DNA of 64,000 nucleotides from Lysobacterales bacterium (GTDB taxonomy: Bacteria; Pseudomonadota; Gammaproteobacteria; Nevskiales; Salinisphaeraceae): NCBI GenBank assembly GCA_002715985.1, contig PBAO01000014.1:62362-126361 (forward strand), read 5' to 3'. Positions 49,236 through 61,520 of the stretch are shown piece by piece. The translations under genes were made by a program, and so were the position numbers. The notes under the pieces are model-generated. The model was not told where the DNA came from and made no database searches. It worked only from the letters and a program-made list of their open reading frames with translations. Numbering within the stretch: position 1 is the stretch's first letter; every line of letters begins with the position of its first letter.

Positions 49236-49754
49236 CGGCACGCGAACGCCGGCGGCCTCCCGCGTCGTCATGCGCTGCCCGAAACGTCGATCGAGACCGA
49301 TCGCGCCATCGCTGTCGTTCCCGCGGTTGCGGAGTGGCCGAGCCGACAGCGACCCGCGAGGGAAAACGACGAGCTGCGCTGATGACAGGACGTGGCTCGA
49401 CAACAAGAGATCGCAATCAGAATGAAGATTCGCGCCCGTGCGCCGGCCGTCATGGCGTTGCTCTTTCTGGGGCTTCTCGTGTCTCGGCCATGCCGCCAGC
49501 CGAGATCGACGATACCCGGGCTATGCCGCGTCTTGTCGCAAGAAAGCGCTTGGCGTGGACTTGCATGACACGGCAACAGGCCCTGGCAAGCCCGGTTGTG
49601 CCGAGACCATCGGAAAGGCCGCAGCCGTGGTCTCGAGCTCGATATCACAGGGCATTGTCCGGCCCGCCGCGAGCGTTGACCGCCGGGCCACGGGCGTTGT
49701 TCTGAGACGATCGTCGTCGAGCCGGCCCGGAGGGATCGGACAGCGGGCGTGTCT
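49236..49754. other. gene-free gap before recD
   Basis: About 520 bases. An ATG at 49422 opens a 48-residue frame with a signal-peptide-like start (RAPAVMALLFLGLLVSRP), but it ends quickly and neighbouring frames do not continue it convincingly. It may be a decayed small exported protein. Nothing else is supported. Confidence 0.4.
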
Positions 49755-60922: not shown

Positions 60923-60999
60923 GTCCTCGTAGCTCAGCAGGATAGAGCAGCCGCCTCCTAAGCGGCAGGTCGCAGGTTCGACTCCTGCCGGGGACACCA
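60923..60999 (+). tRNA. tRNA-Arg (anticodon CCT)
   Basis: A 77-base tRNA with encoded CCA. GTCCTCG pairs with CGGGGAC (one G-T wobble), the D-arm is AGCTCAGCAGGATAGAGCA, and the anticodon stem GCCGC/GCGGC encloses CTCCTAA with anticodon CCT reading AGG. The T-arm is GCAGGTTCGACTCCTGC. Its last 19 bases recur at 61422-61440. Confidence 0.97.
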
Positions 61000-61080
61000 T
61001 TCCATAGCATGGTCGCAGGCCGTGCTATGGAATGGTTTTCGATAGATGTCGAACCTGCGACATGGAAAATACAGGTTCGA
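60981..61080. repeat. 100-bp direct repeat, copy 1 (tRNA 3' end, terminator, T-arm palindrome)
   Basis: The segment from the T-loop of tRNA-Arg(CCT) to the second palindrome arm recurs at 61422-61520. There is one mismatch in the first 80 bases (61010 T versus C) and a short divergent stretch near the end. It resembles the duplicated attachment sites left when an element integrates into a tRNA 3' end. Confidence 0.9.
60996..61039 (+). terminator. tRNA-Arg(CCT) terminator hairpin
   Basis: Seventeen-base arms (60996-61012 and 61020-61036, one G-T pair) around TCGCAGG are followed by T residues to 61039. The left arm begins inside the ACCA end of the tRNA. The same hairpin recurs at about 61437-61480 without a tRNA. 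Confidence 0.9.
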
Positions 61081-61084
61081 CGGC
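61049..61084 (+). repeat. T-arm-derived palindrome downstream of tRNA-Arg(CCT)
   Basis: TCGAACCTGCGACA (61049-61062) and CAGGTTCGACGGC (61072-61084) form an inverted repeat. Both arms are identical to those downstream of tRNA-Arg(TCG) at 25127-25165 on the other strand. A third, slightly altered copy lies at 61490-61520. Confidence 0.8.
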
Positions 61085-61368
61085 GTGGCGCTAGGGCGTG
61101 TTGCGGTTTCATAGGCGTCCGCGCCAAGCGCTGTTTTGCGGCAAGGCGAGGCATAGCTCACGCCGCGCAGTCATTCTGCGCCACTGGGCTAGAACGCTGT
61201 ATTGCCGCAAAACAGCGTTTGGCCCGAAGGGTTGGGCCGCAAATCGTGCCCTGCAGCTTTACGAGTCTTGATCGTGGCACGCCACGATGCTTCAACTCGC
61301 GCCTTGCAGGACGCGATTTGCGGTCTCCAATGCGGACGCATATGAAACCGCAACACGTCCTCGCCACG
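61084..61368. mobile_element. 285-bp gene-free element with nested inverted repeats (MITE-like or structured RNA)
   Basis: Terminal arms of 30 bases (61093-61122 and 61332-61361, 28 of 30 complementary) are extended by CGTGGCG/CGCCACG at the outside. Inside are two independent long hairpins: 61124-61144 with 61202-61222 (20 of 21 pairs), and 61237-61255 with 61305-61323 (17 of 19 pairs). The latter encloses the perfect stem 61271-61278/61281-61288. The whole would fold as a closed stem with two arms. No protein-coding frame of credible composition is present. A non-autonomous transposable element or a structured RNA/DNA element are both possible. Confidence 0.7.
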
Positions 61369-61421
61369 ACGAACAGTCGCGCAAGCGACTGGCCCGAAGG
61401 GTGAGGCGCGAAGCGCCGAAT

Positions 61422-61520
61422 ACTCCTGCCGGGGACACCATTCCATAGCACGGTCGCAGGCCGTGCTATGGAATGGTTTTCGATAGATGTCGAACCTGCG
61501 TCACGAAATTACAGGTTCGA
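61422..61520. repeat. 100-bp direct repeat, copy 2
   Basis: This copy begins with the last 19 bases of tRNA-Arg(CCT) but lacks the rest of the tRNA. It then carries the terminator hairpin, here with a fully paired CACGG/CCGTG arm, and a T-arm palindrome altered between the arms. Between the copies, after the nested-repeat element, lie small perfect hairpins at 61375-61390 (GCAA loop) and 61405-61417 (GAA loop). Confidence 0.88.

Follow-up and report, generated by a model that had tools for sequence, protein, structure and literature searches.

What is the strongly palindromic sequence that follows a tRNA-Arg gene in the analysed window (the whole stretch of 64,000 nucleotides), how did it come to lie there, and why do the arms of its stems match so well? 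The first-pass annotation, made from the letters alone, had described long inverted repeats nested in three sets at 61084-61368 and had considered a MITE-type non-autonomous element, a single-strand transposition substrate or a structured RNA transcribed by read-through from the tRNA promoter. All three arm pairs were recovered. The outer arms are complementary over 33 nt (61090-61122/61332-61364, 91%), those of hairpin A over 25 nt (61120-61144/61202-61226, 92%) and those of hairpin B over 19 nt (61237-61255/61305-61323, 89%), and the perfect 8-bp stem described within the inner arms, ATCGTGGC/GCCACGAT, is present in the window sequence as well. The predicted RNA fold of 61070-61380 reached -192.5 kcal/mol vs -122.6 ± 4.8 kcal/mol for shuffled sequences (z = -14.6), and the DNA fold of the element gave z = -13.8.

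The span originally assigned holds for the structure, but the mobile element proper is shorter. Alignment of copies delimits it to 61094-61360 on the forward strand (267 bp, no plausible gene; nhmmer match at 61092-61362, E = 5.9e-84; 95 full-length copies), directly 3′ of the left target dinucleotide TA at 61092-61093; the right target dinucleotide at 61361-61362 is TC here and TA in most copies, as seen from the sequence and the copy alignment. On the same strand, the left and right terminal inverted repeats (61094-61123 and 61331-61360; arm search, copy alignment and consensus structure) form the 5′ and 3′ sides of the outer stem. Between them lie hairpin A (61125-61221; consensus structure from 84 copies, with double changes in 8 pairs), a mini-hairpin CCC-GAA-GGG (61223-61231), whose CCC and GGG are conserved class-wide, and hairpin B (61232-61330; consensus structure and tree-based pair changes), the basis of the covariance model R1 used below. 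The ends of the window copy read GTGTTGCGG on both sides, those of most other copies CTGTTGCCG, which shows that the terminal repeats share in the compensated changes described below. A truncated second copy, covering model positions 2-92, was found on the reverse strand of the window at 49497-49584 (nhmmer E = 6.2e-14). Searches against Rfam returned no family at the gathering threshold over the window element, and the element at five related loci gave no credible match at E ≤ 1.

The window copy sits 92 bp downstream of the tRNA-Arg gene (anticodon CCT; 60923-60999, forward strand; ARAGORN, and Rfam RF00005 with 67.7 bits), in the first of two tandem repeat units. This first unit (60981-61080, forward strand), which comprises the tRNA 3′ end and a downstream hairpin, lies outside the element, was its insertion target and shares an 87-nt direct repeat of 95% identity with 61422-61508. 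The outer arms had initially been extended by seven more pairs; the arms themselves stand, while the outermost of the added pairs, CGTGGC at 61084-61089 and GCCACG at 61363-61368 (both on the forward strand), belong to a target-site hairpin and not to the element. This hairpin, CGTGGC-gc-TA-GCCACG, is the counterpart of GGCCCGC-ATC-GCGGGCC in the equivalent unit of the relative G004. The element entered the loop of a pre-existing hairpin in the tRNA-Arg downstream repeat. Tandem units without the element occur in other species (two each in G004, G005 and G009, three in G003), and G010 has a single unit; because the repeats exist elsewhere without the element, we rejected the flanking 100-bp repeats as a sign of its origin by tandem duplication or from an att site. 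Palindromic target flanks were not found as a general rule among the copies either, the hairpin flank being peculiar to the window copy. In the tandem repeats themselves (60981-61080 and 61422-61520 in the window; L140, L141, L145 and L146 elsewhere), the tRNA-Arg(CCT) 3′ end is joined to a hairpin and an anti-T-arm segment. Several Salinisphaera species have 2-3 such units, but not every species has the tandem repeats, which presumably resemble the tyrT/rtT repeats of E. coli.

The position beside the tRNA gene is one of many. The host genome contained 43 BLAST matches to the element, and copies were present in all 13 Salinisphaera relatives searched, many of which carry dozens. Across the 95 aligned full-length Salinisphaera copies the terminal inverted repeats of about 30 nt are conserved, with boundaries TA-GGG...CCC-TA. 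The target is YTAR, with CTAG in 29 of 55 clean copies; of 83 Salinisphaera copies, 57 are flanked by TA at either end and none by 3-bp repeats. For three insertions, the sister genome within the G011/G012 pair shows precisely the empty site, uninterrupted and with a single TA. Further copies and sites with and without the insertion were among the checks that the first-pass annotation had proposed. Long open reading frames that reach the element stop at its terminal TAG in 47 of 83 cases, vs 18 in each other frame; insertion at CTAG thus seems often to reuse or preserve the stop codon of the neighbouring gene. Hairpin A or B is broken in 13 of the 95 copies, which occur in several places, and the persistence of such copies indicates that mobility does not strictly require the hairpins.

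Two copies have composite flanks or ends. Host copy L004 shares its left flank with L005 and its right flank with L003, an exchange due either to recombination between copies or to an error in the assembly. L094 (G001:C59:16187-16469) combines ends of two sub-types, GGGCCTGTTGATG on the left and GGACGTGTTGAGG on the right, and is possibly an intermediate in end exchange. A phage origin of the element was considered and dropped, as no match was found in phage records. The hairpin-B pattern is contained in two IMG/VR viral contigs (L368, L369).

Which enzyme could move an element without a gene? In the Salinisphaera relative G006 (G006:C8:121201-122064) we found an 864-bp insertion sequence with TAGGGCGTGTTGAGGTTTC at both ends. 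It encodes a 267-aa transposase with matches to PF13340 (6e-21) and PF01609 (4e-17) and to the NCBIfam model transpos_IS5_3 (NF033580; 257.7 bits, cut-off 110), which places it in the IS5 family. The element carries the same 19-nt ends, and related insertion sequences with matching ends are present in G001, G003 and G007. Only the terminal ~20 bp are common to the element and the G006 insertion sequence, as judged by eye; the core is unrelated. From these ends, the 864-bp insertion sequence is the likely source of the transposase. Relatives of the transposase at E ≤ 1e-20 were found neither in the host genome (82% complete) nor in several copy-rich genomes (G008, G013, G009); the partner is thus absent from these genomes or too divergent there. 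A partner in the IS427 group would fit the TA target, the sole basis for this assignment. An IS630/Tc1-mariner partner, prompted by the TA/CTAG targets, was rejected: PF13358 occurred in only 2 of 11 same-genus genomes and without matching ends. Another IS5-type insertion sequence of Salinisphaera (L289, L284) has ends like TAGGGCGTGTCGTCACGAGA, and the host locus L012 is a core-like copy with ends TAGGGCGTGTCGTCAT.

Dispersed copies, empty sites, target duplication and an autonomous element that has the same ends support the MITE-type reading of the first-pass annotation. Its alternative of a single-strand transposition substrate is not supported, as both the ends and the target duplications are of the kind made by a double-strand DDE (IS5-type) transposase.

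The copies also allowed the pairing to be followed through evolutionary change. Changes in both partners of a pair fell on 113 branches of an 84-copy tree vs 13.9 expected if the sides were independent; these counts were obtained by parsimony, the tree is star-like, and recombination among copies may have inflated them. Ninety-two of the 113 double changes led from one Watson-Crick pair to another, vs about two in controls with sliding or shuffled partners, and the double changes involve 35 pairs spread over all three stems. In the covariation tool's own control, 181 cells had both sides changed vs 51 in shuffles. The structure of the element is real, its pairing has been maintained through change, and the sequence is clearly neither single-copy nor free of covariation, the two observations named beforehand as speaking against a functional or mobile element.

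Whether this pairing matters in DNA or in RNA can be approached through the kinds of change. Among the compensated changes, transversions outnumbered transitions (53 vs 39). Single mismatches over all stems comprised 101 G-T and 130 A-C, with opposite bias by stem: G-T prevailed in hairpin A (52 vs 32) and A-C in hairpin B (69 vs 15). Cell counts for Salinisphaera, which include inheritance, gave 98 G-T vs 30 A-C for the outer stem, 178 vs 40 for hairpin A and 92 vs 112 for hairpin B. The class-wide basal stem comprised 451 Watson-Crick, 2 G-T and 3 A-C cells, in copies found by a pairing model that favours well-paired ones. Since transversions predominate and there is no overall G-U preference, the pairing is better explained at the DNA than at the RNA level, the comparison of G-T with A-C being suggestive rather than decisive.

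In a family related to that of Salinisphaera, the spacers of the hairpins are inverted in some copies: that of hairpin B in L308 and L334 (95-96% identity inverted vs 60% direct) and that of hairpin A in L328 (82% vs 67%). Template switching between the arms of inverted repeats homogenises arms, inverts spacers and favours transversions in bacteria (PMC8604942). Because the spacer inversions and the transversion bias match this process, our preferred explanation is that the matched arms would result from arm-to-arm copying. Copying of long tracts between the arms is not supported, as the compensated changes do not cluster into tracts (4 cases of adjacent pairs compensated on the same branch vs 3.6 expected).

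How far the core extends beyond Salinisphaera became apparent from G040, a genome of the same order and another family, with 58 matches to a sister element. The fetched copies align as one core with three kinds of ends, and cores with different ends are up to 98.1% identical (L319 vs L307/L311). Of the 7 copies with class-3 ends (GAACCTATCCG), 5 are flanked by 3-bp TTA/TAA duplications, whereas 16 of the 26 with class 1 or 2 ends (GGGCCTGTT) have a 2-bp TA duplication. Different duplication lengths point to different transposases, and near-identical cores with different ends and duplication lengths indicate that the core outlives its transposases. In G011, an IS5-type open reading frame starts beside a class-3-like end, AGAACTTATCCGC.

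We then searched with R1, a covariance model of hairpin B and the mini-hairpin built from 41 copies of two families, at a threshold of E ≤ 1e-6, with E-values from a short calibration. R1 matched in 57 of 369 Gammaproteobacteria genomes (45 of 271 genera), often in several places per genome, and 312 of the 369 were without a match at 1e-6. Most loci have terminal repeats of 29-36 nt, and their total length is mostly 262-275 bp; as the model made no use of the ends, these repeats are an independent check on the loci. The ends comprise many unrelated sequences. Both sides of a pair changed in 462 cases vs 148 in shuffles, the alignment having been fitted to the model. Class-wide, the basal stem varies freely, whereas CCC/GGG and the motifs TGCGGCGTTGC and GCGCCTTGC show conservation. 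In 40 kb of E. coli K-12 the best R1 match had E = 1.5, and REP annotation or a REP pattern match was absent there too. The hairpin-B model also recognises the adjacent hairpin A, in reverse orientation, at about 20 of 31 loci. The element thus seems to have arisen from two copies of a single hairpin module in inverted orientation, a relationship that is no longer evident in Salinisphaera.

Plasmid searches with distant cores found little. Unannotated copies lie on plasmids of Pseudomonas aeruginosa (L370, NZ_CP017294.1), Azotobacter chroococcum and Halomonas (L371, L372), the Pseudomonas copy occupying most of the gap between two genes. On plasmid Rms149 (L374:5189-5290), the best R1 match is weak (18.8 bits, E = 0.014) and falls between two integron cassette genes, at the expected attC position; it is probably a chance resemblance between hairpins.

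Taken as a whole, the account of a MITE-like element that IS5-family transposases mobilise in trans, with a core whose ends can be exchanged and whose transposases change, is in our view very probably correct. IS5-family transposases would recognise the terminal inverted repeats and insert the element at TA within YTAR, mostly CTAG, and the 864-bp insertion sequence of G006 may be one source of this activity. The core between the ends consists of two hairpins and the CCC/GGG mini-hairpin, and in several lineages hairpin A can be recognised as an inverted relative of hairpin B. Template switching or recombination within the element may be the main process that keeps the stem arms alike; a change in one end could then be copied to the other, and such copying would keep the ends of the core working during a switch from one transposase to another. 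Purely neutral arm copying fails to explain the conservation of motifs across families, and CCC..GGG and TGCGGCGTTGC..GCGCCTTGC may be kept by selection on a structure. The broader proposition, a class-wide superfamily defined by a folded core of near-constant size, with changing ends and a changing parasitised transposase and with palindromic arm-to-arm copying that matches the ends, is one towards which we lean with restrained confidence.

The pairing could instead belong to a functional structured RNA that is spread by transposition and whose transcript acts as a terminator, mRNA stabiliser or small RNA. Such a role would suit the very strong predicted RNA fold with its compensated pairing, the conservation of unpaired and mini-hairpin motifs over many families, and the open reading frames ending at the element's TAG, which put many copies into 3′ regions; published bacterial MITEs are moreover often co-transcribed and fold stably (PMC3733652, PMC10969869). 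We nevertheless consider it unlikely. The mismatches show no overall G-U preference but a bias that differs between hairpins A and B, G-T pairs are nearly absent from the class-wide basal stem, Rfam has no match, and copies with broken hairpins persist. The tRNA promoter, to which the first-pass annotation had tied a transcribed RNA, is not supported as the reason for it either: besides its many other positions and the missing Rfam family, the compensated changes lack the G-U tolerance expected under selection at the RNA level. An element that is small, gene-free, multicopy and bounded by terminal repeats common with an insertion sequence also resembles an ordinary MITE, a deletion derivative of one insertion sequence whose long stems are incidental, and stable folds are frequent in MITEs (PMC10969869). 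This is improbable given that only the terminal ~20 bp match the insertion sequence, given a core that is unrelated to it, is conserved class-wide and is found with unrelated ends, and given pairing that was preserved through change and is hence not incidental.

Covariance models can score strong hairpins, and the R1 E-values come from a short calibration, so the class-wide matches might be convergent GC-rich hairpins, an artefact of the model that would leave the Salinisphaera family alone as real. The many genomes without a match, the E. coli K-12 result, the conserved sequence motifs and, at most loci, independent terminal repeats at the predicted distance that the model did not use make this very unlikely. 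Least credible is an element transposed as a single strand (HUH/Y1), like IS200/IS605 or REP/RAYT, a reading that we consider to have almost no chance of being correct: the hairpin-rich, palindromic layout recalls the inverted dimers of REPINs in outline, but it is contradicted by the 2- or 3-bp target duplications, by terminal repeats that are long and nearly perfect, and by a partner of the DDE type.

Among known systems, TIMEs (PMC4133298) are the nearest analogue and may be related to the element: they have a near-constant length of 262 bp despite divergence, short conserved stretches in the core and similar folds in different classes, and they are mobilised in trans. Unlike the element, with its TA or 3-bp duplications, they have 38-bp ends of the Tn3 family and 5-6-bp target duplications; the cores were compared by description only. 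MITEPsy1 of Pseudomonas syringae (PMC3189936), which was shown to transpose in vivo, is likewise short and non-coding, with IS5-like terminal repeats and CTAG or YTAA targets. It differs in its 100-nt length, 18-nt repeats, 4-nt target duplication and narrow host group, and a nested hairpin core has not been described for it (PMC3189936). QMITE1 and QMITE2 of Coxiella burnetii and other structured MITEs are multicopy, with terminal repeats and a very stable predicted fold, but have direct repeats of 2-4 or 7-9 bp and other sizes; the accessible portions of these reports do not mention a class-wide core with exchanged ends (PMC5896051, PMC10969869). ISPsp10 of the IS427 group duplicates TA on insertion (PMC4133298), as would suit the IS5-family partner of the element at TA; in contrast to insertion sequences of this group, the element has no transposase. 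REPINs and BIMEs, likened here by layout only, are also inverted hairpin pairs in high copy number, whereas the element is much larger and bounded by transposon-type repeats and target duplications. We found no published description of this element family in the open-access literature.

The usual description of a bacterial MITE is that of a decaying derivative of one insertion sequence, bound to one transposase. A MITE-like element is a known kind; what is new is the folded core that is common across Gammaproteobacteria and has exchangeable ends. A functional RNA should not be deduced from strong covariation in a DNA repeat alone, and the element offers a natural system for studying how the arms of inverted repeats stay alike. 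A core that occurs with unrelated ends in dozens of Gammaproteobacteria families suggests a testable answer to the question of how a non-coding parasite outlives its transposase.
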